Of a stretch of DNA of 56,326 nucleotides, positions 16,601 to 43,323 are shown piece after piece. A program made the translations under genes and the position numbers. The DNA is from Ruminococcus sp. (GTDB lineage Bacteria > Bacillota > Clostridia > Oscillospirales > Ruminococcaceae): the NCBI GenBank assembly GCA_017437285.1, contig JAFSBM010000200.1, positions 1-56,326 of the forward strand, written 5' to 3'. Numbering within the stretch: position 1 is the first letter of the stretch; every line of letters starts with the position of its first letter. A model generated the notes under the pieces. The model worked only from the letters and a program-made list of their open reading frames with translations, was not told where the DNA came from and searched no databases.

Positions 16601-19600
16601 GTTCTGTTCCTTCTTTTTCTTCAAAGTACGCTCTCACTTTGTCTAAATCTTTGGTTGCCTGCAATTCCATCAGCTTTTTGGATTGTGTGATAGTTGTTTC
16701 ATCATGCTTTGACTCTACCATCTCACGCAGCAGATCTTCATTCAGACCGAACAATTCTGCAAATTCATGGATGTTGTCAGTCTTTTCTTCAACCGGCTGC
16801 ACCAGATTCGACGTGGCTTGTACACGATGCCATTCACCGCTGTTCTGGTATACTTGTTCGCTGAATACGCCTTCCAATGGGAAGTCACCCTCATAGAGTT
16901 CAACCTTATGCTCAGCGGTATTGAGTATTGCAAATCCGTCCCATCCATCAGCAAGATATTGCCGACCGGCTTCAACGGCTTCATTCATTGTTGTATACTC
17001 TTTTTTGTCATCGACAAAAGCATCATTGTGAGAGTAAATAAAAAGCTGATGAATTTCCTCTGTAGCCTGTGCTGTTTCGGATTTGTGCTGCACCGGAACG
17101 AACTGCTCCACGCTGCCATCCGTGTGCCGGATTGTCACATCCAAATTATCATGGTACTGTGCCAGAATGCCCTTGATTTCGGCGATTGCCTCCTCATGCT
17201 TCACCGGTGATTCATGTCCCATATCAAACAGATCATTGCTTACCTCTGCCAGCATGATGTGCTTGCTTTCGGGATTATAAGAGAACTCTCTGGTTGTGCT
17301 GTATATTTCCTCATCCGTTCCACGGACAGAAACATCCACAGCATTGAATGTAATGTTTCTGACCTCTGCCAGATCTACATGAAGTCCATATTCCGGAAGA
17401 TCAATCACAGGACTGTCAGTAATCAGTTCTCTTTCAAACTGCTCCTGTTTCTGCTCCGGAAGGAAATCGGGAATCTCCCTGAATCCAACAGAATCCACAT
17501 AATTAGCTGTGATTACACCATCACGCTTGAAAACAACAACATCGCTCACCGACATGGAATGTCCTGTAAAATCTGCCGGACGCTCTTCATTGAACCGATA
17601 GAACAAATCCTCAAGTGAAGTCTGCTCTGTCAGATCTCCGGAATAGACCAGCTCATATTTCTCGAAATCCACCGCATATCCATGCTGTTCCAGATAATCG
17701 ATTCCTTCAAAACGGATGTCACGGTTTTCTTCACCACGCTTTAGCTGGTAGATTTCAAATGTGTCTGTTGCTTCAGCTTTTTCAAGTGCTTTTCGTGCAT
17801 CCTCCGGACTCATGCTGCCATCATAGACAACCGGATCACTTGCATCATCCGCACCAGTGCTGAACCCATCTGAAAAAGAAAGATCAGCCTCATTCGCTGC
17901 CCTTCTTACCTCTTCAAGGAGTATCAGACCAGTGTCAACGCTTTCTGTGATTTCATCATAGATCTGGCTGTGCAGATCTGCATCCTTACTCAGAGCATCG
18001 ATATAGACCGCTACCTCTGTCTGCGGATAGTCCTCAATCGTTCTCTCCATCGTCATCAGTTCTGTTGTGATACGATCAATTGCAGCGTGTACATCAAGTA
18101 CAAAATTTTCTTTGTCAGAGTTTTCATGGCTGTTCTGTACAGTCCGATCATCCTGTATCACACTGGCTGCATAGCTGATAAATACTTCAGAAGTCAGATG
18201 TGCTGGCTCAAGCTCTTCAAAGTTGCTATATGTATCAACTTTTTCTTCAGCAGGAGCAAATTGCTTTGCAAGTGCAGCATGCAGTTCCTTTTCAATTGCA
18301 TTCCAGCGTTTGTTGAAGATCCTACTCAAGCTACTGCGACCGCCGTATCGAGCTGCAAAGCTTGAACCTGTTTCCGGATTCAAAGCCTCTGCTGCCAGAT
18401 CTGTATGCACTTGATGTTCAATTGCAAATTTCTCAAGATTTTTCAGGCATCTCCGCTGTGATTCATTCAGATTTGTATGATTCTGTCGGACTTCAGTAAA
18501 CGCAGCGTGTATCTTCTCTTCAAAGGCACTGTCCGCTGCTGCCTGTTCCTCTTCGATCGTCTCGATGTACTCTGCAATCAGATCCTGCATTACCGGTGCT
18601 GCCTCTTCCGTAGTCATGCTCCGTGCATCTGCAAAGTGTTCCAGTTGTGCATCGGCTTCGGTCGGGATCACTGCTTCACCGGTTTCAAATGCGATCAGTG
18701 CATCTTGATATTCAGCCTGTGTGTACAACTCTGCTTCTCTTGCATCACGCCCGATTGCCGTAGGATTCTCAAAAAAACTTGGATCGTGGGTCTTGACAAT
18801 TTCGTAAAGTTGTGCTATACTAATTGTAGCACCTATTGAAGCATTGCCGGTGTCATCTGACATACGGTCGTGGGCGTCAAAACCCAGCTTTATAGGTGTT
18901 ATTTTCATATCCTTGTAATTGTAAAGGTTATGAATGCTGCCATTGATTCTTCCATCATCGGTTGTATACATTTCTTCAACCGCCAGACAAGCAAGGTACG
19001 GTTGCCCTTTATACTTAATCACCCCATACATCTTGTGCATAAACATGGTGTTCGGGGATTTATTTTTTGAAGTGACCGGATCATAATCGGAGATTTCACT
19101 GTCCAGAATTGCAGCATTCTTTATGATTTCTTCCATATGGTAGAGTGCAGCAATCCGAGCCTCAACATACCTATGACGCATATCATCCTGAATAGTTTTT
19201 GCCAGAGTTTCTTCAATGGATCTTCTACTGAATTCAATCACAAGTCCTGTATCATCATTTGTAAATTTCCCACGAGGAAAATTCTTGATGTTGTTCTTTT
19301 TTCGTAGATCTGTGATTCTTGATGGCATCGGATGATCTGGAATTGTCGGAACTGCAAGAAGTTTGGTATCATCACGCCTTGGATTATCCGATTCTCTCAT
19401 AACAAATGGAGACTTATCCTCAAATTCCGACCATAACATGGATTCCATCTTTGGTGTCTGGGCAACCTCTGTTTCCAGCATATTTTGCACAGATATCCGT
19501 TTAGGAGTGATAGCACGCAGCTGCTGCACATCTTCGACGGTAATCGGCTGATGCTGCACCTCTGTTTTCACCTCGGCAGCAATCTGGCTCAGTTCTGTGA

Positions 19601-21092
19601 TGTCCTCCATCACATCCGCAGCCTTTTCAAAATCTCCGGCAGTTGTCAACGCTGTAAACTGGTTGGTGCGTTTTACGATCTCTTCTGTCAGAAGTTTGAG
19701 GCGTTCTTCAGCTGGCAGTTCAGCGGTTTTCTCCAAATCAAAAGCGTCATCCAGTTCGGATGACGCTTCTTCTGTTTCCGCAGCAGCGAAAACACTATTC
19801 ACTTTTGCAGTTAAGGCTCCGTCACCGGTACCAAGACTCTCTCCCTCATCACCGTGCTGTCCGTGTAAAACGCTCTGGTCTGCTCCCACGCCAGCACCTC
19901 GTTGTACTCCTCCGGTCTGGGATTCATCTTCTCGTACTGCTCGTCCAGCAGTTCCCGATAATCCCATGCCCTCTTGTCCACCGACCGTGCTACCGTCAGG
20001 AACTTGTGCTTGAATCTCATGATCGTCACCAGATGGGGGTACTGTTCCTCCATGAAGTGGATCCACTTCATGCCGTAGCTCCCGATCGGCTCCTCCTCCA
20101 TTGAGGGTTCCATCCCTGTCAGATTCAGAGTGTAAGTGCCGTTCACCGGATTGAACTTGTACCAGAACTCCTGACCGCTCACGATCTCCATCGTGTACAG
20201 GGGGAACCATCTCGTGTTGCTGCCGTTCGGCACCTTCTGTGTTGTCTCCCAGCCCAGTTCTCCGTCCTGTCTCTTCATGTGTGCTGCTGTCAGCTTGTTC
20301 TTCAGCTGTTCCGGCGGAATGCTCGGCAGTTCCTCGTCCGGCACCTGATTCTGTTCTTCCTCCGTCAGTTTCAGCCATGCTTCGTATGTCATTACGCTTC
20401 ATCCTTTCCTTGATGTCCTCATTCTGGACTACATTTTCGATTATCTTCAGTGCATCTTTTGCAGCCTTTGCAGTGTAGGTGAGGAATGCAAGTTTCTGCT
20501 CGTCCGTCTCCAGCATTTTCAAGACTGATGTATCCGCTGGCAACTTGAAGGTACTACCTCCCACTTCCAACCGACCAGCGATAACTACTTGCACGGCATT
20601 CAGATACGCTTTGCTGAATTCAGGAAATTCCGCAATCGGCACTTGCAGTGCTGCCATACATGCTGTGATATGCGATGTAGTGAGCGTTTGATTGATAATT
20701 CCAGTGATCAGTGATTTTTCTTTCGGGATGCTCAGTGCCTCCTTGACGATTCCTGCGTTTCCGGCATGGATCGTCCAAAGATAGGGCGGTACTTCCTCTT
20801 CCATTTGCGAAAAATCATAGTAGTCACTTGCCTGTCCGCTGTGATCGGCAAAACAGATCGCCTTGCTGCCCTGTGCGATGGTAAAGCCCGATCTCTCCCA
20901 CTGCTGTGCAGTTGCGATGAATCGGCTTTCCGGCTTTTGGGCGAAGAATTCCAGTGCAACATTGACACTCTGCTTGAACACTCGTCCTTGAAATTTCAGA
21001 AATTCTCTGTAAACATCGCTGTTTTCGGACATTTCCCGAAGTTTCATTGCACCGGCTTCACTAAAGCCATTGATGGGGGTTTGCATTGACAA
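10623..21092 (-). CDS. Giant N6-adenine methyltransferase/SF2 helicase polyprotein
   Basis: At 3,489 residues this is one of the very large multi-domain proteins of Firmicutes ICEs. Domains in order: an N-terminal ArdC/LtrC-like region (about 1-230); a low-complexity linker (234-428) that overlies a TnpV-like gene in another frame; acidic helical regions; a YodL-type domain near 1105-1215 (FTGHSMSVSDVVVF); an N6-methyltransferase near 1900-2150 with EPACGTGNF (about 1956) and GNVPFG; and an SF2 helicase with VGAGKS (about 2642), CDEAH (about 2811) and QREGRILRQG (about 3151). It probably modifies and unwinds transferred DNA to evade restriction. TTG 21092 has AGGAGG eight bases upstream; ATG 21086 is the alternative. 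It remains open throughout. Confidence 0.88.
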   Translation of the reverse strand: MSMQTPINGFSEAGAMKLREMSENSDVYREFLKFQGRVFKQSVNVALEFFAQKPESRFIATAQQWERSGFTIAQGSKAICFADHSGQASDYYDFSQMEEEVPPYLWTIHAGNAGIVKEALSIPKEKSLITGIINQTLTTSHITACMAALQVPIAEFPEFSKAYLNAVQVVIAGRLEVGGSTFKLPADTSVLKMLETDEQKLAFLTYTAKAAKDALKIIENVVQNEDIKERMKRNDIRSMAETDGGRTESGAGRGTAEHSAGTAEEQADSSTHEETGRRTGLGDNTEGAERQQHEMVPPVHDGDRERSGVLVQVQSGERHLHSESDRDGTLNGGGADRELRHEVDPLHGGTVPPSGDDHEIQAQVPDGSTVGGQEGMGLSGTAGRAVREDESQTGGVQRGAGVGADQSVLHGQHGDEGESLGTGDGALTAKVNSVFAAAETEEASSELDDAFDLEKTAELPAEERLKLLTEEIVKRTNQFTALTTAGDFEKAADVMEDITELSQIAAEVKTEVQHQPITVEDVQQLRAITPKRISVQNMLETEVAQTPKMESMLWSEFEDKSPFVMRESDNPRRDDTKLLAVPTIPDHPMPSRITDLRKKNNIKNFPRGKFTNDDTGLVIEFSRRSIEETLAKTIQDDMRHRYVEARIAALYHMEEIIKNAAILDSEISDYDPVTSKNKSPNTMFMHKMYGVIKYKGQPYLACLAVEEMYTTDDGRINGSIHNLYNYKDMKITPIKLGFDAHDRMSDDTGNASIGATISIAQLYEIVKTHDPSFFENPTAIGRDAREAELYTQAEYQDALIAFETGEAVIPTEADAQLEHFADARSMTTEEAAPVMQDLIAEYIETIEEEQAAADSAFEEKIHAAFTEVRQNHTNLNESQRRCLKNLEKFAIEHQVHTDLAAEALNPETGSSFAARYGGRSSLSRIFNKRWNAIEKELHAALAKQFAPAEEKVDTYSNFEELEPAHLTSEVFISYAASVIQDDRTVQNSHENSDKENFVLDVHAAIDRITTELMTMERTIEDYPQTEVAVYIDALSKDADLHSQIYDEITESVDTGLILLEEVRRAANEADLSFSDGFSTGADDASDPVVYDGSMSPEDARKALEKAEATDTFEIYQLKRGEENRDIRFEGIDYLEQHGYAVDFEKYELVYSGDLTEQTSLEDLFYRFNEERPADFTGHSMSVSDVVVFKRDGVITANYVDSVGFREIPDFLPEQKQEQFERELITDSPVIDLPEYGLHVDLAEVRNITFNAVDVSVRGTDEEIYSTTREFSYNPESKHIMLAEVSNDLFDMGHESPVKHEEAIAEIKGILAQYHDNLDVTIRHTDGSVEQFVPVQHKSETAQATEEIHQLFIYSHNDAFVDDKKEYTTMNEAVEAGRQYLADGWDGFAILNTAEHKVELYEGDFPLEGVFSEQVYQNSGEWHRVQATSNLVQPVEEKTDNIHEFAELFGLNEDLLREMVESKHDETTITQSKKLMELQATKDLDKVRAYFEEKEGTELSTIHLNARLHRVLHDFVLYGDMPEKSGAKPEEQVVESTDTLSEATTNTNSDPEVQPAPAPAPTAKKHLTRSERLYKEFAEMFPDLVSGTHIHERYGNVDDAYEPLSVEHLGGDQYSFMTYYIQEGDLMRDPDFTFTLDHEAKTLTIMEYQQDGVPPIGTIYQRVHDEHGNPDRKLLAALEQNFLQVLKNARYADRPLAAYTDSNGEVTKLETPALEETETIESVEVSTDRTPELRAVLNAFSEKHGLGELNIEDNRYNWKLTETLQDGTVHQLGEINNPDPEMPFTPENLHTALETFEAEVEMRKQTVSNLYGRKALASTHGGVSALPKVQADLPEITYAHNPADKVSDNLAALRELKRLERAERNGQPLYDRWTTQQDSENALRRYCGWGGLPQVFDETFSRYEYARKQLQSLLTPEEYAAARESTLNAHYTPQIIIDAMYTAIQNMDLPRDARILEPACGTGNFITRKPHSLSDAEVVGVEIDNVTARIAKQLHRNDENVTIMECGFERSGLTDSSFDLAIGNVPFGSYKLNDPDYAQDWLIHDAFFRKALDKVAAGGVVAFVTSSGTMDKASPKVREYLATQAELVGAIRLPNTAFADAGTKVTSDIIFLKKREHPLQAHEPKPDWCYTIPNADGLKINSYFVQNPQMVLGKMEQTTHFDMLTCTPHEGADLKVQLSEAIKNLNAKISVTKREKAIQQQRGMIEPWGKNFSYQVQDGKVYYRETDTMQEVKGSKKDIQQLAMLCELRDVTRKLLDMQKTSASDEDLLPIREKLNEVYDAYKKEFGAVSEKKVKKLFGADSDFPIIQSLETHSEETQQYEKADIFFRRTVNPMAEITAVQTAEEALQVSLDQRGFPNIVYMATLLREQYPDAELPEIADKVCTELLDKGAIFLDPEKCMPDMPYSGVVERSEYLSGNVRMKHTMALEYAKADPLFERNAAALAEVIPEDIRAEEIAVQMGCPWIEPQDYTAFLQHLSGRSIYSRNSEVSYSPVTGEFAIMNAGSKKDLNLAETTTYGTADYSLYQLAEKILNQRRIAVMREKPHPKDPSKTITRTDPRATKLAMEKAKLIREEFKKWIFADPARKAKYERKYNDIFNSLVGREYDGSKLTLPGMSAGFVLRPHQKDCVARAIYGGNTLAAHVVGAGKSAVMFSTVMKKKELGLIHKACVVVPKALTEQVASEWRKLYPDAKLLTVTSDDLSSEAKRKLFTARVATGSYDAVIMSQEQFEKISMSKAYRVAFMQKELDKLEDMLRERKRENSGKRDFSIKNLETAKKRLKARIEKLTDPKAAAKAKDDLLEFEQLGFDYLVCDEAHAYKNGFVTTKMTNVAGVTTRPSGRAEDMQMKTDYFNEQFGQGHILFCTGTPVSNSMTELYVMTRYLRPDLLEQAGVARFDDWAATFGNVVTKNQQGADGTLKLRTSFASFANLPELMAMYKEFADVQSADKLQLPRPKLKTGKPQIVSVPATPEQKAYVQSLAERARAIAAGLVEPHEDNLLKITGEARLIGLGNAAIRSLYEKREEELPIDFVDGTDSKVDACIRNVSEIYQQTADTRGVQIIFSDIAVNADHGNFSVYDYLKEQLIAAGIPEEEIIFAPKSDAKNRADIFRDINDAKYRVVIASTGTLGTGANIQQNLCALHHIDVPWKPSDFEQREGRILRQGNRYDEVQIFNYVTEGTLDSYLYQTVTAKARFIAQLLDDKCPARVSEDCDEKVLTFGEIQAAAEGNPDFKRRIELANEIAELTMLRTEYTYETGQMQRKVESIPAQIEKKKETLAHIQSDKKAAEHISELVLRSQTGHTLIDRKAINAYLLDMAQKKAADPNENVPSVTINGFEVSVRAEDHLALGTEAFFTVKGEYTYTCSAGLTENQDNYQRLCNLLSKGIAKSEEDTVKAIADLETNLQQATERVGIPWQYEAELEAKTEELNELELRLAGLSVQEDDVCDAEEVPIVETAEEVQKRKETYGSTDDNDFQPVDDDMTPPTNGTPRK
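18224..18237 (+). repeat. 14-bp dispersed motif, copy 1
   Basis: TGCTATATGTATCA followed by ACTTTTTC, inside the giant gene (minus-strand reading KVDTYSN). Part of the six-copy set described in the findings. Confidence 0.6.
18793..18821 (+). promoter_or_regulatory. Possible antisense promoter inside the giant gene
   Basis: TTGACA (18793-18798), 17 bases, TATACT (18816-18821). The -10 region GTGCTATACT and the following ATTGTAG resemble the antisense promoter at 21432-21460. Downstream, AGCACCTAT (near 18828) can pair with ATAGGTGTT (near 18894). As it lies in coding sequence it may be coincidental. Confidence 0.35.
19811..20392 (-). CDS. TnpV-like protein nested out of frame in the giant gene
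   Basis: The 193-residue product begins MTYEAWLKLTEEEQNQVPDE. Its second half (EEEPIGSYGMKWIHFMEEQY, then DKRAWDYRELLDEQYEKMNP) resembles TnpV, a small protein of unknown role frequent in Clostridia mobile elements. It lies wholly inside the giant gene, shifted by one base. In this frame the protein has normal Trp, Tyr, Phe and Leu content; in the giant frame the same DNA yields a Gly/Glu/Asp/Arg/His-rich string without hydrophobic core. GGAAAGGATG about eight bases before the ATG is a good ribosome binding site. I infer that this frame is the one under coding constraint here and that the giant protein tolerates the segment as a linker. Confidence 0.65.
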   Translation of the reverse strand: MTYEAWLKLTEEEQNQVPDEELPSIPPEQLKNKLTAAHMKRQDGELGWETTQKVPNGSNTRWFPLYTMEIVSGQEFWYKFNPVNGTYTLNLTGMEPSMEEEPIGSYGMKWIHFMEEQYPHLVTIMRFKHKFLTVARSVDKRAWDYRELLDEQYEKMNPRPEEYNEVLAWEQTRAFYTDSTVMRERVLVPVTEP

Positions 21093-21389: not shown

Positions 21390-22130
21390 TCACGGACTAC
21401 CTCTAACCATGAGAAAATATCGCATTTCCTCTTGACATTTCAATAAAAATGTGCTATGATTATTGTAGGTTTTTGATTGTCTGCTATGCAGACTACCAGT
21501 GTGACTGTACTCGCAATACAGTCGCACTTTTTTCTTGCCCTTGAGTGTCCCACGCACCCAGAATATGATTTGATAGTGGTTGTCTACGAACATATGCCGG
21601 TTCTCTTGTGCTTTGCGATGGCAGCGTGTGATGAGCTTCAGCTCTACCAACTCGGTGATCGTCTGGATCACCAGCTCACGCTTCATACCGGTCTGTGCTG
21701 CAATGTCGCTGTAGCTGTTCCAGCTGTCGTTCAGCTTGGGGCTGTACATCTTACAGATGAATAAGTAGATCAGCATCTGACGAGGACTCAGCTTGCCGAA
21801 GATATGTCGATCAACGAAGAAATAGCAGCTGTCTGTTGGCAGCTGCTTTATTGCATAGCTGTAGGTACCCTTGTGATGATTCGCCTTCACAGAGCGTCTC
21901 AGAGGCTCCACAAGCCCCTTGTCTGCCAGACGGCTGATTACCTTGGAAACCGTTTGAACTGCCTTAAAACCACATTTCTGTGCAATTGTGGACTGCTTTA
22001 CACGGACAGTTGATCTATCATCCAGTGTGTTTTGCAGTGATGGGAGGCTGCACAAGTAAGCATAGATGCTGATTTCCTGTGCATCCAGTCCCAGTGTGAA
22101 GATATGATTGCTGATTTTGAATCGGCTCAC
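21390..22130 (-). CDS. Helix-turn-helix protein, ICE-associated
   Basis: The 246-residue protein starts at GTG 22130 behind AGGAGG: MSRFKISNHIFTLGLDAQEI. Two winged-helix-like modules can be seen. One, about residues 45-80 (QSTIAQKCGFKAVQTVSKVI), is a helix-turn-helix. The second, about 140-170 (YSDIAAQTGMKRELVIQTIT), repeats the pattern. The opening resembles DnaD- or replication-initiator-like proteins common in Clostridia conjugative elements. A role in element replication or in transcription control is plausible. The last codons are overlapped by a plus-strand promoter and terminator that specify a short antisense RNA. No origin repeats were recognised nearby. Confidence 0.75.
   Translation of the reverse strand: MSRFKISNHIFTLGLDAQEISIYAYLCSLPSLQNTLDDRSTVRVKQSTIAQKCGFKAVQTVSKVISRLADKGLVEPLRRSVKANHHKGTYSYAIKQLPTDSCYFFVDRHIFGKLSPRQMLIYLFICKMYSPKLNDSWNSYSDIAAQTGMKRELVIQTITELVELKLITRCHRKAQENRHMFVDNHYQIIFWVRGTLKGKKKVRLYCEYSHTGSLHSRQSKTYNNHSTFLLKCQEEMRYFLMVRGSP
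21432..21460 (+). promoter_or_regulatory. Promoter of a short antisense RNA
   Basis: TTGACA (21432-21437), 17 bases, TATGAT (21455-21460). It points rightward into the 3' end of the minus-strand helix-turn-helix gene. Confidence 0.68.
21467..21536 (+). ncRNA. Short antisense RNA against the helix-turn-helix mRNA
   Basis: Behind the promoter at 21432-21460 come two hairpins. A GTCTGC/GCAGAC stem with a three-base loop lies near 21479-21493. An 11-bp stem with one wobble (21501-21511 with 21519-21529) follows and runs straight into TTTTTT. The result is a compact RNA of about 70 bases with an intrinsic terminator, complementary to the 3' coding end of the helix-turn-helix gene. Countertranscript RNAs of this size commonly control plasmid replication initiators. 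The target relation here is inferred from position only. Confidence 0.62.
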
Positions 22131-32198: not shown

Positions 32199-32212
32199 TG
32201 CTATATGTATCA
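32199..32212 (+). repeat. 14-bp dispersed motif, copy 2
   Basis: TGCTATATGTATCA in the spacer between virB6 and prgI, within a longer imperfect inverted repeat (AATGTG...CACATT, 32196-32217). An 11-bp A-rich word starts twelve bases later (32224-32234). Confidence 0.62.
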
Positions 32213-34471: not shown

Positions 34472-36979
34472 TTACATCATGTCATCAAGCGACAATCCGT
34501 AATCGTCTTCAGTCATACTTGCGAATCCTTCGATTGCTTCGGCAAAAAATTCTTCTGCTTCAATGAAGGCTTCAGGAATCTCACCATCATCACCAAGACC
34601 TTCGATATGCTGCACAGTGCCTTCCGGATCTGTATAGTGAGTTTCCAAGGGTTCCTCATGCATTTCCTCATCCCCGCTTAAGGAAAGCATGACGGCAGAG
34701 TCTGTTTCATCTTCTTCAACCTCCTTTCTTTCTCTGATCGGTTCACCTAATTCAAACGCTTCAAGATCTGATACCTCTCCGAATTTTGGCGAATTGTCAA
34801 TGTATTCCTCAAAGATGCCATCGCTGATCGGCAGTTCCGCATACAGTTCTGCATCCTCATAGGTCTCCAGTTCGATGGGAGTAGCAGTCACTTCCACTTC
34901 TTCTCTCACGAATACAGCATCGATCTTCCCAGCATTTATTTCAGTTTCATCAACTGGATTTGTGATACATGTATCAACTTCTACCGGTTGTTTCTGACGG
35001 TTCTGTTCTTCCAGTTCCGTGACACTGACAGCGTGGATTGTAGATACATCGAATGCATTCTTTTTGTCGAAATCTTCAAGAAATTTGAAGTTGGGGTGCT
35101 TTTCGATCGGGAATTTACTGCAATAGAATGGATTGTGTGATCGGATCATCAGTACACAGTCACTGATCGGCATGGTTGACAGTTCATTGGGCTGCATCAG
35201 CTCACGCCCCATGATGCTGTTGTTTTCCGATGTGCTGGACTGCTTACCCTTCGTCCGGTTCTGTCCTCTAATATCGATTGTTTCTTTTCCGAGGGATTCA
35301 GAGATCGATTTCAGAGTGCTTTCCTCTTTACCACCAAGGAAAAGGAGGCTATCGCAGTTACCTGTGATGACCTCCCATGTTTTCTCATATTTAGCTTTCA
35401 GCTGGGCAAGGTTCTGAATGATGACATTCAGTGACATACCCATGGAGCGGACAAATGCAATTACCTTGTCAAAATCGGGGATCTGACCGATGTTCGCAAA
35501 TTCGTCCATGATGCAGCGTACATGAACTGGCAGAACGCCACCATATTTGAAGTTCGCACGATTGGACAGCGTGTCGAACATCTGTGTATACATCATTGCT
35601 GCCAAGAAGTTGTAAGTACTGTTTGTCGCTGAAATGATGATAAACAGTGCTGTTTTCTCATCTCCGAGCGTTTCCAGATGGATGTTGTCACAACAGGTCA
35701 GGTTCTGTAAGTTCGTCAAATTGAACATGAATGTTCTGACATTGGCTGAAGAAAGAAAAGATTGTCCGGTTTCTTCAGGTGCGTTGCGGACTTCCTTGTA
35801 TAACCGTCCTGCCAGCGTTTCCCCTCGGCGTTTCTCCAGTTCGATGAAATCCTTGTCCAAGGGACAAAGGAACGCAGCAGCTTGTCTTGCCCGAAATGCC
35901 TCTTCTGTTTCGTCTGGTTCTCTATCAAGAAAGAATCCATCCGGAAGTTGACCGCCTCTCGGAGGATATTGCAGCTTACGCATTTTCTCTGTCACCGAGA
36001 AGAAGTTCAAATGTGAAGTGTCCCGAGTTTCGGGAATGATATCGCCGTTTGCATCATACTCGGCATTGTAGGTGCTTTCTTCGAATAGCAAAAACACAAT
36101 CGCCTCGAGCATGGTTTGTCCCTTCTGGCTCCAGAAGTCATCCTTTTCACCTTCGCCCTTGGTGTTTTTGAAAAGCACATCCACCATCTTCTTGATGTTG
36201 TCCTCAGATACCTGTCCATTATGATCGTAGACATAGGCGAAAGGGTTGTAGTTGTTGGAGTGCTGCATTTCGATCAGGTTGAACACCTTCAGCTTATAAC
36301 CGGCTTGCAGCAGCATCTGTCCAGTTGATTGCAGGATTTCACCCTTCGGGTCTGTGATGACATAGGATGTGTTCAGCTGCATAATGTTCGGCTTTGCAAA
36401 GAAACGAGTTTTACCAGAACCGGAACCACCGATAATCAGGACATTCAGATTCAGCAGATGGTGTCTTGCATTCAGTGAGAGGAAGACCTCTTCTGTCAAC
36501 AAGATGTTGTTGTCCACGATCACACCAACAAAGTTTCCTTTCTCATCAAACACCTTCTTACCATCTTTGGAGATTGGTCTGAACTCCGGCTTGTCGGGAT
36601 CTGCAAGTGATTTCATTTCTTTTGCATCGCCCCACTTTGCCGAGCCGTGTTCCACGCCACGGCGGTGCAGTCTTTTCTTTTCTTCGGTGTACTTGTACAG
36701 GGCATAGATGCCCACAACACAAGCACCCATGAAAAGCATTTTGGGAGCATAGCTGTCTTCTTTTTTCAGTGCAGCAAAGATAAGATCGGGGTTGGCTGTG
36801 ACTTTATTGAACGCATCACCAAGTAAGTTTATATCCACAGAGCCATCTGGCTTCAGTGAATAGTCCATGGCTGCACCCAGAATCCAGCACAGCACGAGTA
36901 TCACAACAGCGATTGCTGCATAGATGATAATCGTAGATTTGCTGATCTTTCTGGGCTGTGCTACTTTTGCCTTTCCCAT
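34472..36979 (-). CDS. VirD4/TraG-type coupling protein
   Basis: The 835-residue ATPase links the relaxosome to the secretion channel. Two N-terminal membrane helices (about 15-35 and 80-98) precede Walker A GGSGSGKTRF near residue 182, DPKGEIL, and Walker B CIMDEFANIG near 487. MPISDCVLMIRSHNPFY near 630 is typical of TraG proteins of Firmicutes elements. The acidic C-terminal tail after about 690 is unusually long and is likely a substrate-docking region; a copy of the 14-bp dispersed motif falls in it at 34965-34978. Its ATG overlaps the stop of the upstream PcfB-like gene (TAATG). Confidence 0.94.
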   Translation of the reverse strand: MGKAKVAQPRKISKSTIIIYAAIAVVILVLCWILGAAMDYSLKPDGSVDINLLGDAFNKVTANPDLIFAALKKEDSYAPKMLFMGACVVGIYALYKYTEEKKRLHRRGVEHGSAKWGDAKEMKSLADPDKPEFRPISKDGKKVFDEKGNFVGVIVDNNILLTEEVFLSLNARHHLLNLNVLIIGGSGSGKTRFFAKPNIMQLNTSYVITDPKGEILQSTGQMLLQAGYKLKVFNLIEMQHSNNYNPFAYVYDHNGQVSEDNIKKMVDVLFKNTKGEGEKDDFWSQKGQTMLEAIVFLLFEESTYNAEYDANGDIIPETRDTSHLNFFSVTEKMRKLQYPPRGGQLPDGFFLDREPDETEEAFRARQAAAFLCPLDKDFIELEKRRGETLAGRLYKEVRNAPEETGQSFLSSANVRTFMFNLTNLQNLTCCDNIHLETLGDEKTALFIIISATNSTYNFLAAMMYTQMFDTLSNRANFKYGGVLPVHVRCIMDEFANIGQIPDFDKVIAFVRSMGMSLNVIIQNLAQLKAKYEKTWEVITGNCDSLLFLGGKEESTLKSISESLGKETIDIRGQNRTKGKQSSTSENNSIMGRELMQPNELSTMPISDCVLMIRSHNPFYCSKFPIEKHPNFKFLEDFDKKNAFDVSTIHAVSVTELEEQNRQKQPVEVDTCITNPVDETEINAGKIDAVFVREEVEVTATPIELETYEDAELYAELPISDGIFEEYIDNSPKFGEVSDLEAFELGEPIRERKEVEEDETDSAVMLSLSGDEEMHEEPLETHYTDPEGTVQHIEGLGDDGEIPEAFIEAEEFFAEAIEGFASMTEDDYGLSLDDMM
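34965..34978. repeat. 14-bp dispersed motif, copy 3 (perfect palindrome)
   Basis: TGATACATGTATCA, the only copy that is a perfect palindrome, followed by ACTTCT as in other copies. Lies in the virD4 coding tail (reading VEVDTCITN). Confidence 0.65.
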
Positions 36980-38958
36980 TAGTGTCTGCCTCCAATAGGT
37001 GCTGTCGGCGGTGTGTCTGGAAGTTTGGGTGCCGTGATTTCTGGTGTCTCAGGCAGTTGAGCAGAAGCATCTGTTTTCAGACCATGAAGTACATCTGTTA
37101 CATGAGCTTCGTGTCCATTCAAATGCAGTTCATCGAAAGGCGGATCATCATCCAACGGCGGTCCATCCATGTCGGGGATAGTAGTTTCTTTAGCATCTGC
37201 ATCATATCCAAAGGTGTTGTTAATATCATCCTGCACCAGTTCTTCCAGTGCCAGCGGATTGACTGCATCTGCTGTCTTTGCAACAACCGCCTCAGCTGTT
37301 CCTTCTGATACTTCAAACTCTTCTTTGAGCTTTTCAGCAGCAGCTTGAGGGTCTGTGGTATCGATCTCTACAGCGGTTCCGGCGTGAGAAATGACGGCAG
37401 ATTCAGCACGGACTTCTTCAACAAGCAGAATTTTCTCGGCACTTTGTGTTTCGGCTTGCCGGAAAACATCCTGTGCCATCTGCTTTGCAATATGTTCCGG
37501 TACACCCTGTTTCTTGTAGAGATCCATCAGTTCCTTCACACCATTCTTCTTATCTGAAAAAGAAAGGGTAAGTATCTGTGTGTCTGTCGTAGAATGATCT
37601 ACTCCATGCTGATCTGTTTCGATGGATGTCACAGCACTTGTAACAAAAAAGTGGTTTTTGCTGGTGCGTTCGATCTCATTGCTGATGCTGCTTACAGGCA
37701 GTGCCTTAGCAAAGGCGTTGCCAGCTGCATCCGTGCGATGCATACCGCTGATCACTTTTTCATCACGCATATCAAAGTCGGATTTCTTGAATGTGTAATC
37801 CAGACTGTGATTTTCTTGCGTGGCGTAGTAGTCAGATACCTTCTGTGCTTTATCTACTAATGCAAGTACGGTTGCTGCATCAGTAATCTTCAGCTGTGTT
37901 TGCAGCCGTTCTGCCATCTGTCGCTGTGTCATCTTTTCGGGATTCAATACGGCAAAATTTCCGTCATTATCTCGAAATACGATTCTGGGAACGCCATCTG
38001 ACTTAGGAGTCATTCGCCAGCAGCTGTATTCTTTTGTAAGTACACTTTCACCCTGCACTTCGATGTTGGCATCCACCTTTGAGAAGGCGTTCTGGGGAGC
38101 GTTGCTGAAGAATTTCTGCTTTGCTTCACCTTCAAGCATTTCTTCTCCGAACTTTGCACAGACAATATCTGCCTTGCTCTGATCGTAATCGAACTGCTCC
38201 TGAATCATAGCGGACAATTCTTCTCTTGATGGCGGTTCTTCAAAGCTGATTTCCTTACCGGAACGCACATCCTTGATAGTTAAGTAGCCTTGTTCATCTC
38301 TGTCGAAGGTAATATCCTTCTTGATCTCGTCACATTTCCGGACAAACTCACCTCTTGCGATCAAAATCGCCTTTTCGTCTGCCTTTTCATACAAACAGAA
38401 GTACTCTCCATTCTTTGTTTTACCAAACTGTGCAGCCAGATCGTGTTTGTTCAGTTCAGCAGTAATAAAGGGGATTTCCCATTGCTTTGCTTTGAAGTTT
38501 CCGAGTTCTTGCGGACGGACTTCCAGTTTTTCTTTCATCAGATCTGTACAGATACGCTGCAAAATGGGTAGATCTTTGGAACGCACATTGGCATAGATAT
38601 TATCCTTGCCTTTGGTACCGGTGAATGCTACAGGAATGCCATACTCTTTTGCTTTCCTTGCAACGTATTTCATATCAGCCTGAGTCAATCCATGATCGGA
38701 AGAGGATACTGAATCACCAGTTTTTCTTGCGTTTTCGAGCAGCTTTTTGATTTTTACTTCACCGGTTTTCAGTTCTGTCAGATCAGTGGATTTTACAGGT
38801 TTCTCTTTACTGGCTCGTGGTACACTCAGTGCTTGCAGCAGTTTTGCAATGTTATCAATTGTACGATCGACAGCCTTCGCTACAGTATCAATTGATGCTT
38901 CTGCAAGTTTCGTACCAACTTGTAAGGTAGCACCAGCTACTTCATCGCCCATGCTCAT
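36979..38958 (-). CDS. PcfB-like (DUF3801) protein, extended form
   Basis: The 659-residue protein starts at ATG 38958 (MSMGDEVAGATLQVGTKLAE), seven bases after AGGAGG; the longer frame upstream crosses a terminator and is rejected. Residues 1-130 match the PcfB/DUF3801 pattern: helical start, then VKIKKLLENARKTGD and QADMKYVARKAKEYGIPVAF. PcfB is a relaxosome accessory encoded directly before the coupling protein in pCF10 and Tn1549-type systems, as here. Ordinary members are about 150-200 residues; this one carries some 500 more, including repeated lipid- or DNA-binding-like regions I cannot name and an acidic, proline-rich tail. It is coupled to virD4. Confidence 0.78.
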   Translation of the reverse strand: MSMGDEVAGATLQVGTKLAEASIDTVAKAVDRTIDNIAKLLQALSVPRASKEKPVKSTDLTELKTGEVKIKKLLENARKTGDSVSSSDHGLTQADMKYVARKAKEYGIPVAFTGTKGKDNIYANVRSKDLPILQRICTDLMKEKLEVRPQELGNFKAKQWEIPFITAELNKHDLAAQFGKTKNGEYFCLYEKADEKAILIARGEFVRKCDEIKKDITFDRDEQGYLTIKDVRSGKEISFEEPPSREELSAMIQEQFDYDQSKADIVCAKFGEEMLEGEAKQKFFSNAPQNAFSKVDANIEVQGESVLTKEYSCWRMTPKSDGVPRIVFRDNDGNFAVLNPEKMTQRQMAERLQTQLKITDAATVLALVDKAQKVSDYYATQENHSLDYTFKKSDFDMRDEKVISGMHRTDAAGNAFAKALPVSSISNEIERTSKNHFFVTSAVTSIETDQHGVDHSTTDTQILTLSFSDKKNGVKELMDLYKKQGVPEHIAKQMAQDVFRQAETQSAEKILLVEEVRAESAVISHAGTAVEIDTTDPQAAAEKLKEEFEVSEGTAEAVVAKTADAVNPLALEELVQDDINNTFGYDADAKETTIPDMDGPPLDDDPPFDELHLNGHEAHVTDVLHGLKTDASAQLPETPEITAPKLPDTPPTAPIGGRH

Positions 38959-39042: not shown

Positions 39043-39056
39043 TGCTATATGTATCA
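39043..39056 (+). repeat. 14-bp dispersed motif, copy 4
   Basis: TGCTATATGTATCA followed by ACTTT, in the spacer just after the stop codon of the upstream gene. A degenerate A-rich word (TTGAAAATGAAA) stands right before it. Confidence 0.62.
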
Positions 39057-39059
39057 ACT

Positions 39060-39563
39060 TTAGTCTGACTCTAACTTGCTTGCCACAGTCAGATAGTGGT
39101 GATAGCCTCCGTTCCTGCGAGGATAGGTCTTTACCTTTCCTACATTGAATACTTGCTTCAGTATGCTGACAATATCGTCAATCTCTGATTCTTCTGCGAT
39201 TTCAATCCTAATGTGGTATTCCTTGTTCTCCGTCATAGTTGCCATAGCACGAAAGCCTTTACCTTGACCGGCAGTTCCGAATGCAAACCCAGTATTCTGA
39301 CTTTGGCGTTTATTTTGCAGAACATTATGTTGCGTTGCATTCGCACCATAAACTCCTGTAAATTCAACGATCTCATAATCATGACTGGTATTTGAACAAC
39401 TGGCTGCCAGCTTTTTCGCTGTATTTTCAGCAACTTTCGCTGATTTGTAGAGTTTGGGGTTAAGACTGTCAAATGCCGCAAATTTTTCTCCTTGCACAGC
39501 ATAAGTCCCACCAGAATAGATTTCAGAAGGCGATGCACAATAATGAAACTTGATGTAATACAT
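39060..39563 (-). CDS. Hypothetical protein
   Basis: The protein of about 167 residues begins MYYIKFHYCASPSEIYSGGT. ATG 39563 overlaps the TGA of the upstream gene; a GTG one codon earlier is an alternative and both have AGGAGG at usable distance. Two halves are visible: a first half that resembles a small modification or nuclease-like fold (YAVQGEKFAAFDSLNPKLYK) and a C-terminal RIEIAEESEIDDIVSILKQV region that looks like a ferredoxin-type beta-alpha-beta unit. No family was recognised. It is the last gene before the terminator that precedes the PcfB-like gene. Confidence 0.6.
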   Translation of the reverse strand: MYYIKFHYCASPSEIYSGGTYAVQGEKFAAFDSLNPKLYKSAKVAENTAKKLAASCSNTSHDYEIVEFTGVYGANATQHNVLQNKRQSQNTGFAFGTAGQGKGFRAMATMTENKEYHIRIEIAEESEIDDIVSILKQVFNVGKVKTYPRRNGGYHHYLTVASKLESD

Positions 39564-39874
39564 CACTGATCAGCCTCCTCATACCGCATGATGTATCCGG
39601 CATGTATCACTTCCTGTTCTGCCTCTTTCATTCGATCGACAAACTGCTTGTCCAGTACATCGTAGTTGTCGTGAGGGATACCTTCATAATACTTCCGTGC
39701 CATCTGTTCACGCTTGATCGGATCATCCATGATGTCAGAACGGATTGCAAAGCAGGGGTACTTGGTTGCTGGACACATCAGGGGATATTTGTGTTCTCGT
39801 GCGATCTTCGCACATACACACCCTACACATATTGCCACTCTTTTCGGGGGCTTTTCCTTACTTTCCATTCTCAT
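39563..39874 (-). CDS. Small Cys-containing hypothetical protein
   Basis: The 103-residue protein begins MRMESKEKPPKRVAICVGCV. Cys residues in ICVGCVCAK, MCPATKYPC and nearby positions could bind zinc. A helical second half (YYEGIPHDNYDVLDKQFVDR) follows. It lies between ssb and the gene above with a short gap and a four-base overlap, so it belongs to the accessory cluster ahead of the transfer genes. Function unknown. Confidence 0.62.
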   Translation of the reverse strand: MRMESKEKPPKRVAICVGCVCAKIAREHKYPLMCPATKYPCFAIRSDIMDDPIKREQMARKYYEGIPHDNYDVLDKQFVDRMKEAEQEVIHAGYIMRYEEADQ

Positions 39875-40264: not shown

Positions 40265-40297
40265 AGTATTCTTTCCTTTCTTGTTTGCATATTAAAT

Positions 40298-40690
40298 TTA
40301 CAACTGATACCGCAGCCGTACTGCTTGCCAGTAGTAGGGGGCATAGGAGCAGCAGTTGAAGATCTCGTCAACTGCATAGTATCTGGACGGCAACTCTGTT
40401 TCATAGCCATCTTTGTTGTAGGTTTCGCCATCCGTGTGACATCCGTTCCATAAATTAAATGCTAATCTTGTTGTTTTCTTGGATGTGCCGGTCTGCCAGC
40501 TGCAATGCAAGCCATTCCGCTTGATCAGATCTTCCTCGATGTCAAACAGATCGTTCAGGTGTTCTCTGCATACGCTGTCCAGCGTCAGGAGATATGCAAG
40601 CGACTGGTGATAGCAGTCTCTGTGCTGCATGATAGATAACAGCTTGGAGTAGGCAGTCATGTGTTCTTCATTGAAAAAGAAAATGTTCAT
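40298..40690 (-). CDS. DUF6075 family protein
   Basis: The protein of about 130 residues starts at ATG 40690 (MNIFFFNEEHMTAYSKLLSI), eight bases after GAGGAG; an upstream GTG overlaps the previous stop and is less likely. The run SLAYLLTLDSVCREHLNDLF, then WQTGTSKKTTRLAFNLWNG and the ending SYAPYYWQAVRLRYQL match DUF6075 proteins, frequent in Clostridia ICEs and prophages. Function is not known. Soluble by composition. A copy of the 11-bp A-rich word lies at its start (40672-40682). Confidence 0.75.
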   Translation of the reverse strand: MNIFFFNEEHMTAYSKLLSIMQHRDCYHQSLAYLLTLDSVCREHLNDLFDIEEDLIKRNGLHCSWQTGTSKKTTRLAFNLWNGCHTDGETYNKDGYETELPSRYYAVDEIFNCCSYAPYYWQAVRLRYQL

Positions 40691-40695
40691 TCTTT

Positions 40696-41061
40696 TCACT
40701 CCTCATAAACAATTTCAGTCCCGCAGTTCTTGCAGAATTTTTCACCACCATCAGCATAGTATATCGTTCCGCATTCACATTCAAATTTACCTTCGTTCAG
40801 TGCGTATCCGCACTCTTCGCAGTAGTGGCCTTTTTGGGGATGATACATTGCACCACAGGCAGGACAAGACGATGGCATATGAGATAATACTCTTGGAATA
40901 ATCATGGGCAAAACAGCAATGGCGAACGATAAACCGGCAACAAGCACTGCAATATTTGCTCTTTCCTCTTTTCCATTCTGTTTTGAAACAAAACAGACAA
41001 TAAATGAAATGAAGAAAATAATCATAAAGATTACACTTAAAACAAGTACGAAGATTTTCAT
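40696..41061 (-). CDS. Membrane protein with zinc-ribbon tail
   Basis: The 121-residue protein has two membrane helices (about 4-26 and 36-55) followed by a cytoplasmic or external tail with four Cys pairs: CPACG, CEECG, CECG and CKNCG. These make two zinc ribbons. Such zinc-ribbon membrane proteins occur in many bacteria without a fixed role. ATG 41061 lies one base from the stop of the exonuclease gene. It may act as a membrane-tethered adaptor; nothing shows with what. Confidence 0.7.
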   Translation of the reverse strand: MKIFVLVLSVIFMIIFFISFIVCFVSKQNGKEERANIAVLVAGLSFAIAVLPMIIPRVLSHMPSSCPACGAMYHPQKGHYCEECGYALNEGKFECECGTIYYADGGEKFCKNCGTEIVYEE

Positions 41062-41062
41062 T

Positions 41063-41965
41063 TTACTTTATAACTCCTTCCATCATCTTCCGATAGCAAT
41101 GCAGCGTAGCACGACAGTCTGCCAGACTGTCGTGTGCCACATCATCGCCCCAATCATAATCATAGTACGCTGCACAAGTAGCAAGCTTCTGCCACTTGTA
41201 ATCGCCTCGAAAATCGCTCCACTCACCATAGATCGGGGCGAACTCCATCATCACATCATAGATCTCTGCATCCTTCGGAATTACAGCACCATAACCACGC
41301 AGCATATTCAGATCGAAATAATCATGATTATACCCGATGATCTTCTTTGCCCTGCCCAGAATCGCATTGATCTTTGGCATCTCATGGTAGATGCTTGGAG
41401 CATCTTGTACCATTTCCGGACTGATATGATGGATTCTCTCAGCCCCTTTCCATTCCTTGACATAGATCGGCTTGATATAGCTGTTGTACAGGGTGTTGCC
41501 GTTTCCGTCAATGATGGAGATTTGCAGCGGTTCGTCATCCGTACAATCCAGACCAGTCGTTTCGATGTCAATGACAATCTCATCCGCAGCTGCATCTGGT
41601 TCGCACTGAATCTGTTTGACAAGCTGCACCAGCATCTGATCGAGCTGGGCAACTGTCTCTTCCAGATTTGTGATGTAGTCCTGCTGTCTTTGTTGCTCCT
41701 GCTCTGCTGCTGCCTGACGCTGTGCAGCAAGTTCTTTTCTTCTGGCGTTCTTCTTGTCCCGATACGGTTTCCAGAATGCGTTCAGTTCCTCCGGCGTAGC
41801 CTCATGTACTTCTTTTTCAGTGAAGTACACAAAGGTATTTCCGTTGTGATTGTGGTTCGCCCACATTTCCTCACCGGCTGCATCGGGATTGACAACATAG
41901 CCGAGAGTTGCCCATTGTCTGGCTGTTCGGAGGTTTTCATCTTCAAGCCTGTTTCGTTCTCTCAT
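41063..41965 (-). CDS. DEDDh 3'-5' exonuclease
   Basis: The 300-residue protein has an N-terminal helical region with a Gln/Ala coiled coil (about 75-120) and a C-terminal exonuclease domain of the DnaQ/RNase T kind. The motifs are IDIETTGL near residue 133 (ExoI, D and E), NHDYFDLNML near 210 (ExoII) and HDSLADCRA near 280 (ExoIII, H and D). It would trim 3' ends of DNA or RNA in the cytoplasm. Its place next to ssb and parAB suggests a task in element replication or in processing of transferred DNA. AGGAG lies before the ATG. Confidence 0.87.
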   Translation of the reverse strand: MRERNRLEDENLRTARQWATLGYVVNPDAAGEEMWANHNHNGNTFVYFTEKEVHEATPEELNAFWKPYRDKKNARRKELAAQRQAAAEQEQQRQQDYITNLEETVAQLDQMLVQLVKQIQCEPDAAADEIVIDIETTGLDCTDDEPLQISIIDGNGNTLYNSYIKPIYVKEWKGAERIHHISPEMVQDAPSIYHEMPKINAILGRAKKIIGYNHDYFDLNMLRGYGAVIPKDAEIYDVMMEFAPIYGEWSDFRGDYKWQKLATCAAYYDYDWGDDVAHDSLADCRATLHCYRKMMEGVIK

Positions 41966-41975
41966 TGGTACTCCT

Positions 41976-42170
41976 TTACATCAAACCATTATGCCGGATA
42001 AGGGCAATGACGATGAAGGCAAAAGCAGATACAATCCACCCTCCCATAAAGCTACCACGCCATTTCCCAATAAATAAATCTCGTTCCACCCAAGAGGCGA
42101 TAATCCATCCTACAAAACAAATCGCTGTGATAATTGCCAATATGCCCTGAATCAAAAACATAAAATCCAT
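41976..42170 (-). CDS. Small membrane protein
   Basis: The 64-residue protein starts at MDFMFLIQGILAIITAICFV (ATG 42170 behind GGAAGTG). It has two membrane helices (about 4-24 and 40-58) joined by a charged loop WVERDLFIGKWRG. It lies between parB and the exonuclease gene. No family was recognised. Confidence 0.6.
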   Translation of the reverse strand: MDFMFLIQGILAIITAICFVGWIIASWVERDLFIGKWRGSFMGGWIVSAFAFIVIALIRHNGLM

Positions 42171-42234
42171 AGTATCACTTCCTTGCTTAATTTTACCCAA
42201 AGCCTTCATATGCTTATCTGAAAAAGAAAATTGA

Positions 42235-43323
42235 TTATTTCTTGATGGCGTTAAGCAACTTCAAAAGCTGTTTCAGCACATCTTCTTCATACTCTGTTCC
42301 AATACTGGAGTAGGATGCAAAGATTGTCTGAAGCTCAATCATTTTCTCACCGACAAACGATGCAAGGGCATCCATAGGGGACTTGCTTTCAGAAATTGTG
42401 CTACATGTATCAACTTCTTCTGCAACCTCTTCTGCAACCGGCTCTGCCGTTTCCGCAGCATCCTCCATTGCAGAATCCATATCTGCATCCATTTCCATGT
42501 CTGCATCCATCACACCAAAATCATCTGCTGCCGATGAAAATGTGCTACATGTATCAACTTCTTCTGCAACCGGTTCGGCAACTGATTCTGTACTGCTTGT
42601 GGCAGATTTCTTTGGCTTTGGTGTTTTGGGCTTGCTCTGGTTCTTTGCCTTGACATCCTTGTGCTTGATGCCCTCAAAGCCTGTCTGTTCCAGCAGTTCC
42701 ACCTGATCTTCTACATCCATCTTTGCAATCTCACTTGCAGTGGAGATGGATATATCACCGCTTTCGACAGCCTCCTTGACTGCCGGAATTGCATTCTTGT
42801 CTACATTCTGCATCTTTCCGACCTGAGCAGGGGAGACACCCAAAATTTCCGCAAGCTTTTCCCTGACACGACCAAACTTTTCACCGGCACTCTTTTTATC
42901 CTTCAAAATCTTGTCCACGATTTCGTAGGACTTCCACATTTCCGCATCGGAGATCTGTCTGGCACTAACATTCATCAGCACAATGTCAAGCAGCCTGTCG
43001 GAATCATCTGCATACTCCTGCACAAGGCAGGGGAGATAGCGTGATACATTCTCACCCTGATCGAGCAGATACTGCACCGCAGCTCTACGCCGGTGTCCGC
43101 TGATGATCTCATAACCGCCGGACTCCAACGGACGGACGATCAGATTGTCCTTGACTCCACCCTGTCCGAGGATGGTTTCCGCAAATTCTTCTACACGCTC
43201 TACAACAAAGAAGTTGTCAGCCGATTCGTGAAGTTCGGCAATGTCAATCATCTTGATGTTGTCCGTCATGGTATTCGCTGCAATGGCAGCGAGGTTAGAA
43301 AGCATCGTTTTTGCCATCCTCAT
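42235..43323 (-). CDS. parB: ParB-like partition protein
   Basis: The 362-residue protein contains the ParB/Srx nuclease-like core, with GGYEIISGHRRRAA near residue 68-81, and a helix-turn-helix region (REKLAEILGVSPAQVGKMQN near 155-175). The long tail is Ala/Glu/Asp-rich. ParB binds centromere-like sites and, with ParA, segregates or stabilises the element, perhaps when it is excised. Its ATG overlaps the parA stop; a second ATG two codons on is possible. Two copies of the 14-bp dispersed motif lie in its own tail, encoding the repeated AEEVDTCST. Other copies elsewhere make that motif a candidate binding site for this protein. Confidence 0.9.
   Translation of the reverse strand: MRMAKTMLSNLAAIAANTMTDNIKMIDIAELHESADNFFVVERVEEFAETILGQGGVKDNLIVRPLESGGYEIISGHRRRAAVQYLLDQGENVSRYLPCLVQEYADDSDRLLDIVLMNVSARQISDAEMWKSYEIVDKILKDKKSAGEKFGRVREKLAEILGVSPAQVGKMQNVDKNAIPAVKEAVESGDISISTASEIAKMDVEDQVELLEQTGFEGIKHKDVKAKNQSKPKTPKPKKSATSSTESVAEPVAEEVDTCSTFSSAADDFGVMDADMEMDADMDSAMEDAAETAEPVAEEVAEEVDTCSTISESKSPMDALASFVGEKMIELQTIFASYSSIGTEYEEDVLKQLLKLLNAIKK
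42399..42412 (+). repeat. 14-bp dispersed motif, copy 5
   Basis: TGCTACATGTATCA followed by ACTTCT, inside parB (reading EEVDTCST). About 30 bases around it are identical to those around copy 6, so one may be a local duplicate of the other. Confidence 0.62.
42543..42556 (+). repeat. 14-bp dispersed motif, copy 6
   Basis: TGCTACATGTATCA followed by ACTTCT, inside parB, 144 bases from copy 5. Confidence 0.62.

Follow-up and report, generated by a model that had tools for sequence, protein, structure and literature searches.

Introduction

The IncC plasmid R55 carries a parABS system with 14 dispersed parS, each a 14-bp symmetric core in a 22-bp inverted repeat, and ParB binding to them was shown by gel shift; SGI1, on which two more parS lie, borrows this system (PMC10954446). 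Here we describe a contig of Ruminococcus sp. (JAFSBM010000200.1, 56,326 nucleotides, the whole of which is called the window below) with an integrative and conjugative element (ICE) that encodes its own ParA and ParB and carries seven copies of a short dyad. These sites are real, confined to the ICE in this genome and linked to ParB; their place is often conserved, their arms are symmetric, and inside genes they are locked to one reading frame. We predict, with a probability of about 0.88, that they are parS-type operators read by the ParB of the ICE itself.

Like R55, the window system unites a conjugative element, ParA with ParB, and many symmetric sites scattered over the backbone. R55, however, is a Gram-negative plasmid with mostly intergenic sites (PMC10954446), whereas the window system is an ICE, in whose family about two thirds of the sites lie inside open reading frames (ORFs) in one frame, often in parB, and the site varies between relatives. 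KorB of RK2 (IncP) is likewise a ParB-family clamp dependent on cytidine triphosphate (CTP), belonging to a conjugative element with many palindromic operators (PMC11790492), 12 as stated in PMC10954446. The OB sites of RK2 are silencer operators upstream of promoters, with KorA as partner (PMC11790492), whereas those of the ICE lie mostly in genes. The parS of repABC (GTTNNCNGCNGNNAAC, e.g. GTTGACAGCTGTCAAC) has the half-site GTTGACA, seen also in three relatives of the ICE (L133, L139, G295). It occurs in multiple copies, some of them in ORFs, and its authors suggest selection even within coding sequence, but the dyad has 16 bp with a centre 2 bp shorter, lies nearly always in or near the repABC operon and belongs to alphaproteobacteria (PMC9040568). 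ParB-parS and Noc-NBS form a similar helix-turn-helix (HTH) ParB family with switchable specificity, although the switch residues there are 173, 179, 184 and 201 of Caulobacter ParB and the site differs (PMC7383237). Active partition on ICEs is represented by srpMRC of SXT/R391 and by Soj of PAPI-1; unlike the window system, srpMRC is of the ParM type with a local centromere region (PMC4489591). Titles and abstract openings among the matches listed, in a coverage with subscription journals mostly outside it, held no report of ParB sites on ICEs of this kind.

Sites of the ICE

Exact matches to TGMTAYATGTATCA were found at seven places of the window and count as eight strand matches, the site at 34963 being a perfect palindrome and so scored on both strands. 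Chance expectation from 100 dinucleotide shuffles had a mean of 0.00 and a largest value of 0; when up to three mismatches were allowed, 39 matches stood against 17.2 expected. The coding-strand form of the site, AAGTTGATACATRTAKCA, is near-symmetric wherever ACTT follows, and the seven sites span about 37 kb of the ICE:

5586–5599, plus strand: site 1, AAGT-TGATACATATATCA, within a 122-amino-acid ORF of uncertain reality, frame V-D-T
18224–18237, minus strand: site 2, AAGT-TGATACATATAGCA-ACTT, in the giant polyvalent gene (VDTYSN)
32199–32212, minus strand: site 3, spacer immediately upstream of a PrgI-family gene
34963–34976, symmetric and so without strand: site 4, TGATACATGTATCA, in a VirD4-like gene (VDTCIT)
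39043–39056, minus strand: site 5, gap between gene 39060–39566 and gene 36979–38958
42399–42412, minus strand: site 6, linker-coding 3′ part of parB (VDTCSTIS)
42543–42556, minus strand: site 7, linker-coding 3′ part of parB (VDTCSTFS)

The pattern reads on the minus strand at 5586. If a TTG within site 5 serves as its start codon, the neighbouring gene 36979–38958 extends to 39057 instead.

An earlier, sequence-only reading had listed six of these positions. All six exist as exact matches, one of them at 34963 instead of 34965, and a seventh, 5586, had been overlooked. The single orientation which it gave for all applies to those six; judged by the AAGT arm, the seventh is reversed (six of seven alike). 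Its other descriptions agree with our data: ACTT follows five of the six listed sites (32199 has CATT), one copy is a perfect palindrome, four sites lie in coding DNA of three genes (the giant gene, the VirD4-like gene and parB twice) and write VDT there, as does the ORF at 5586, and two lie in spacers (32199, 39043). The copies at 42399 and 42543 have about 30 bases in common and may, as it proposed, come from a single duplication.

The ICE measures about 43.4 kb, and its ends are marked by an identical 23-bp direct repeat. Its identification is based on the integrase, the attachment repeats at tRNA-Trp, the relaxase and the type IV secretion genes; the gene content comprises a tyrosine integrase, ParA, ParB, a VirD4/TraG coupling protein, a TraG/VirB4-type ATPase, PrgI, a topoisomerase, a MobV/Mob_Pre relaxase and the giant polyvalent protein of 3,489 amino acids. 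The following features are used below:

42235–43323, minus strand: parB, with ParB_N domain, HTH, acidic linker and small C-terminal region, the probable reader of the sites
42802–42834, minus strand: ParB residues 164–174, SPAQVGKMQNV, taken as the recognition helix from the alignment
43320–43991, minus strand: parA, a 223-amino-acid Walker-type ATPase (KGGVAKTT), overlapping the start of parB
2558–2580, plus strand: left attachment repeat, 3′ end of tRNA-Trp (2507–2580)
45950–45972, plus strand: right attachment repeat, 23 bp identical
44778–45797, minus strand: tyrosine integrase of the ICE

The claim that the motif is confined to the ICE holds for this genome (G000; 4,126,311 bases, 235 contigs). 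Every exact match lies between the 23-bp repeats, and a motif scan of the whole genome (4.13 Mb) found no exact copy of TGMTAYATGTATCA outside the ICE. Five one-mismatch matches occur on its other contigs, which does not exceed the 4 forward and 4 reverse matches of the reversed control pattern genome-wide. The same genome has a second ParB, 37% identical (G000:C209:4596-5477; loci L034, L115), and the window motif has no copy on the 12.9-kb contig that carries it.

The window ParB scores above the cut-off for ParB_N (PF02195, CTPase fold), which was matched in all 15 aligned relatives, and has GHRRRA where the CTP-binding motif stands. Its PDB matches are Noc and ParB/Spo0J. The HTH_ParB Pfam family matched in only 2 of 15 family members; the phmmer alignment to Spo0J 1vz0 extends through residue 241, and the A3 profile places the HTH on Noc without significance. 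With 33.6 bits the window ParB lies far under the curated cut-off of 315 of the Noc NCBIfam TIGR04285, so we do not call it Noc. ParA has AAA_31/CbiA matches, and its PDB matches include Soj/ParA.

Dyads of related elements

ParB relatives were sought in whole genomes, named genome contigs (15 loci) and viral contigs, and their dyads were found by k-mer counts and by a search for repeated near-palindromes, neither of which was given the motif and the latter of which allowed one mismatch. The one-mismatch scan put the window motif at the top; a two-mismatch de novo scan was swamped by other words, the window motif not being top.

A dyad site occurs in 18 of the 19 aligned ParB loci with about half or more identity over the best segment, the window included; two of the 18, L129 and G316, have a single copy. 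The letters differ from element to element. We found TGATACATATATCA five times in G019, TGACACAAGTAGCA eight times in G295 and in a tandem array of 10 (7 exact) in G139, and TGCTACAAGTAGCA in G734 (14 copies) and G699 (11). A dyad of the TGATAYATRTA type is present nine times in L132, TGATACAAATATCA nine times in L135 (the same as contig G721 C27), TGCTACTAATAGCA and TGCCACTAATGGCA three times each in L127 and L128, TGCCACAAATGGCA five times in L142 and TGCTACATATAGCA 11 times in G180, with one variant. By a looser pattern, two copies each were found in L125 (TGGTACATGTACCA), L130 (TGGTACTAATACCA), L139 (TGACACATGTGTCA) and L140 (TGCCACATATGGCA), and a mixed array of five in L133. A clear repeated site is wanting in 5 of 28 ParB loci. 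When the motif was predicted for further relatives, G845 C2, which has the helix of G180, proved to have the G180 site three times, one agreement, and no sites were found within the 3–4 kb examined at G845 C21.

Five motifs were counted across eight whole genomes, and three of them are almost strictly ICE-confined, two less cleanly. The window form TGATACATRTAKCA has 8 strand matches in its own genome, 5 in G019 and none in the other six; TGACACAAGTAGCA was counted 7 times in G139, 8 in G295, once in G699 and not in the five others, and TGCTACATATAGCA 13 times in G180 and not in the other seven. The fourth, TGYTACWWGTARCA, has 16 places in G734 (15 on the ICE contig) and 11 in G699, all on the ICE contig; the fifth, TGATACAARTATCA, is discussed below.

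ParB helix and half-site class

The association of ParB residues with half-site class was scored over 211 ParB columns in 24 ParB/site pairs, with class labels which the analyst assigned after the helix pattern was first noticed. From 35 aligned ParBs, the 11 without an assigned class were left out (G000b, G181, G056, G106, G281, L141, G773, G721 C39, C40, G755, G633); left out of both the association and the tree were also the duplicates L126, L131 and L134 and the truncated L136. The highest rank goes to residue 169 (z 6.6), followed by 166 and 172 (both z 4.4), with 136 and 244 close behind at 4.3. Residues 166, 169 and 172 all fall in SPAQVGKMQN, and we place them, by an alignment made by eye, presumably at about 174, 177 and 180 of Caulobacter ParB.

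Residue 169 is first in all three label sets (full, TGCCA vs rest, gCTA class omitted). Ser169 pairs with TGCCA in 5 of 5 cases and is found in 0 of 19 others; Gly169 pairs with TGATA, TGACA, TGCTA or TGTTA, Lys169 with TGGTA (2 of 2) and Arg169 with TGACA (1). The Ser169-TGCCA link had been recorded before G316 was found, and the ParB of this locus has Ser169, its parB holding one TGCCATTTGTGGCA. On the 24-row ParB tree, from which the helix was excluded, we count at least 13 changes of site class and at least 7 of residue 169.

Place, symmetry and reading frame

Six ICEs have 75 sites. Similarity of the flanking proteins places 56 of them on the window, and 26 of these 56 fall within 120 bp of a window site, as against 15 of 199 mapped random positions (300 drawn). 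Because sites of the same ICE are not independent of each other, we give no p value. In the G734 list, 8 sites lie left of the part collinear with the window, and ICE borders are fixed for the window only.

The shared places are four. The ParB linker place of site 7 is common to five of the six compared ICEs, while the sixth, G019, maps beside site 6 (2064, as does G699 15850). The spacer before PrgI (32199) has counterparts at G734 28528, G699 2777, G721 21042, L132 17817 and G295 44226; the VirD4-like gene (34963) at G295 46883, G734 31293, G699 5517-5598, G721 18330/18384 and L132 15231; the gap at 39043 at G295 51602 and L132 11153. Window sites 5586 and 18224 have no counterpart within 120 bp among the six. 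Neither of the two outcomes that the sequence-only reading named as refuting it was obtained: the motif is not in the rest of the genome, and homologous ICEs have corresponding places occupied, in letters of each element's own class, although two window sites lack a counterpart within that distance.

Arm symmetry was evaluated in 137 sites (103 distinct 22-mers) of 22 elements. Complementarity in distinct sites, compared with shuffled ones, was 69% vs 38% for pair 3/12, 86% vs 67% for pair 4/11, where the regex forces just pyrimidine/purine, and 89% vs 61% for pair 0/15; with one site per element, it was 86% vs 42% (3/12) and 86% vs 55% (4/11). In the parB array of L133, one repeat has changed in both arms together and is still palindromic, with VDTCVN for VATCGN. 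In the 10-fold array of L131, 2 of 22 columns are variable in the site vs 19 of 41 in the spacer, and third codon positions vary in 1 of 7 vs 7 of 14.

Placement was counted for 103 sites of nine elements, with crude ORF calls of at least 60 amino acids. Outside or at the edge of called ORFs lie 35 sites, non-coding DNA being 3–14% of the spans. The other 68 lie in ORFs, and 65 of these share one frame, mostly V-[DA]-T-x-x-N (10 of the 65 are the G139 array). In the motifs inspected, a stop closes one of the alternative frames, and the other would give a hydrophobic peptide. If it is the DNA that is selected and polar linkers are tolerant, such frame-locking is to be expected; the constant orientation and the VDT peptide stressed in the sequence-only reading follow from it. 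Its proposal that selection acts on the DNA is strengthened, since the same letters stand outside ORFs and dyad symmetry is kept while amino acids differ. Polarity as a functional feature was dropped, for it is absent where other ICEs have symmetric sites, and where sites are asymmetric it goes with the preferred coding frame.

Points weighing against ParB recognition

Several results weigh against this prediction. Symmetry and conservation may be inflated, since the sites were selected by eye among the regex matches; those that did not resemble the repeated dyad of their element (e.g. window 4501, 28519, 44599, 50621) were excluded in this way from the counts of place, frame and arm symmetry. 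The central pairs are not symmetric (6/9 50% vs 60%, 7/8 41% vs 52% in shuffled sites). No dyad site was found at L141, whose ParB has 53% identity, and L133 (one site of five) and L130 (one of three) each have a site outside the class of their element. Of 8 elements inspected in the clade whose ParB helix is PAQVGKIENIKHN or close to it, 6 (G000b, G755, G773, G181, G721 C39, C40) have no clear repeated site, nor was one found in the 3–4 kb examined at both G881 loci of the PAQVGKIENIKHN-like clade; two members of the clade, G738 and G793, do repeat TGCTATAATAGCA.

The helix association also has its weak sides. With the gCTA class omitted, residue 166 is sixth and 172 unlisted, and for CCA vs rest 166 is thirteenth and 172 likewise far from the top. 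Independent tree pairs for Ser169 agree in 4 of 4 cases, which at p 0.125 is short of significance; Glu172 offers only one pair, and for Ala166 about 2.7 of five pairs agree and 2.3 show no difference. The tree has 5 of 21 branches starred and one long branch (L142). Taken alone, the tree-pair test would thus be compatible with shared history.

Confinement is incomplete in some relatives. Five TGYTACWWGTARCA occur in G295, none on its ICE contig; of 16 TGATACAARTATCA in G721, 8 are off the ICE contig, and the same motif occurs 6 times in G734 (2 on the ICE contig) and twice in G019, at contig ends. Orphan dyads like those of the family exist without nearby ParB in G721, G734 and G295; no ParB-like gene was found in the stretches examined around them.

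The orphan dyads of these stretches (L242, L252, L253, L254 in G721; L247-L251 in G734; L244-L246 in G295) are mostly intergenic, and the orphan motif of G295, TGCTACTAGTAGCA, is unlike that of its own ICE. The idea that contig C11 of G180, with sites and no ParB, is a hijacking element was set aside: a serine recombinase, a Mob_Pre relaxase and a DUF3991/Toprim gene are encoded on it, so that it may be the rest of the same ICE.

Mechanism and alternative explanations

An IncC-like ParABS system with dispersed parS appears to be the best explanation. We infer physical binding, the CTP clamp and partition as follows. A ParB dimer would dock by its helix-turn-helix on the dyad TGNYA....TRNCA (about 22 bp with arms) and then, to judge from the ParB_N family and the Spo0J/Noc matches, form a sliding clamp that depends on CTP for loading and spreads to the ICE DNA around it. 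Since the sites extend across 37 kb, such clamps could coat much of the ICE. The adjoining ParA, by its linkage, may segregate the excised circular or replicating ICE, and the same clamps might also repress ICE genes in the manner of KorB. Sites would settle where they are tolerated, between genes or in genes in one frame, often in ParB's own linker, and a change of the recognition helix would be followed by the sites across the element. We regard partition as somewhat more likely than not to be a main role, which is compatible with regulation. The sequence-only reading had thought scattered sites unusual for a partition locus, but the 14 sites of the conjugative plasmid IncC R55 are a precedent (PMC10954446).

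A network of the KorB type, in which ParB docks at the sites chiefly to silence ICE genes or coordinate them and partition comes second, is compatible with the ParABS explanation and possible, though we would put it below even odds. The over-representation of sites outside ORFs in the crude calls and the position of some sites directly upstream of a ribosome-binding site favour it, as does the silencing by KorB sliding from distal operators on RK2 (PMC11790492). On the other hand, 68 of 103 sites are within ORFs, none of the window ORFs scanned was recognised as a KorA-like partner, and parA accompanies parB in 27 of 28 loci, which points to partition. These 28 loci, many of them partial, were chosen for having ParB, so that its own 28/28 carries no weight. 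The same survey bears on whether another protein of the element reads the sites: an AbrB-like protein (44444–44755), the product of gene 43998–44447, an HTH_36 protein (21390–22130) or the integrase. All are element-encoded, some are DNA-binding by family, and the first two adjoin parA in the window. They were found in 0, 2 and 4 of the 28 loci for the AbrB-like, 43998 and HTH_36 genes, where the absence of distant genes from partial loci says little, and the residue with the best association to half-site class lies in the recognition helix of ParB, which makes such a reader very unlikely. The neighbour-gene comparison and the helix association together support the ParB of the element as reader, as the sequence-only reading had suggested.

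That the dyads are sites of site-specific recombination or cassette exchange, with ParB linkage incidental or secondary, we consider improbable. One locus has a single site in G734 (36334), two sites 205 bp apart in G721 (12922/13127) and two 3.57 kb apart in G699 (10336/13910), the coordinates of these three coming from joined contig pieces; between L242 (15152/16172) and L253 (10122) a 1-kb segment between two sites is present vs absent; and length changes are commoner in gaps with a site (10/27 vs 20/130, p 0.015, gaps not independent). However, ordinary recombination between 20–22-bp repeats explains such changes too, many sites lie inside conjugation genes, and the ParB helix association is not predicted. 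It is still harder to hold that the peptide V-D/A-T-x-x-N, as a short linear protein motif, is conserved instead of the DNA. The common frame of 65 of the 68 in-ORF sites would fit, but it follows equally from DNA selection in polar linkers, and the 35 sites outside called ORFs keep the same letters. Moreover, a check of 12 window genes found five VDT, four of which are sites and one of which is written with different codons, and in L133 the amino acids differ (VATCGN, VDTCVN) while the dyad symmetry stays. Least probable of all are RNA hairpins serving as terminators or processing signals: perfect dyads such as AAGTTGATACATATATCAACTT could, by inspection, form 9-bp stems with a 4-nucleotide loop, but A-G or C-A arm mismatches break the stem in several window sites and in G295 sites, the stems are A+T-rich, and the helix association is again unpredicted.

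Under the ParABS explanation this ICE family of gut and rumen bacteria gains a defined candidate centromere. It is also a natural experiment on the joint change of a DNA-binding protein and many dispersed sites, a subject earlier studied for the ParB/Noc switch (PMC7383237), and it raises the questions why such sites are distributed along the whole of conjugative elements and whether ParAB stabilises the excised ICE. A wider view is speculative and, in our opinion, rather doubtful as a whole: a Ruminococcus-type ICE family with a dispersed ParB-site code that is rewritten upon helix mutation, at fixed places and in one frame, whose sites would also be junctions of segment gain and loss and whose orphan copies might let other DNA ride the ParAB of the ICE, as SGI1 does with IncC.

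Additional observations

Some elements have, and others lack, a segment of 0.2–3.6 kb between two sites while the outer flanks are similar, as would be seen with sites serving as recombination junctions. Among distant ParB genes, L032 and L017 have nearby dyad words, GTTCCACGTGGA four times and GCAATATTGCCA six times; the former resembles the canonical chromosomal parS. The viral 16-mer GTTGATACATRTAKCA, at one place in each of 68 stretches, was taken as chance background of a large collection and rejected as a sign of relatives. Outside the ICE, the flanking chromosome has imperfect 36/108-bp tandem repeats at window 55136–55703 (13.2 copies of 36). Four viral contigs (L183, L184, L185, L193), which encode a distant (30%) ParB, have five TGACAAAAATGTCA with one mismatch allowed, spaced by 22–23 bp; this may be a phage parS array, and the four loci may be one phage.

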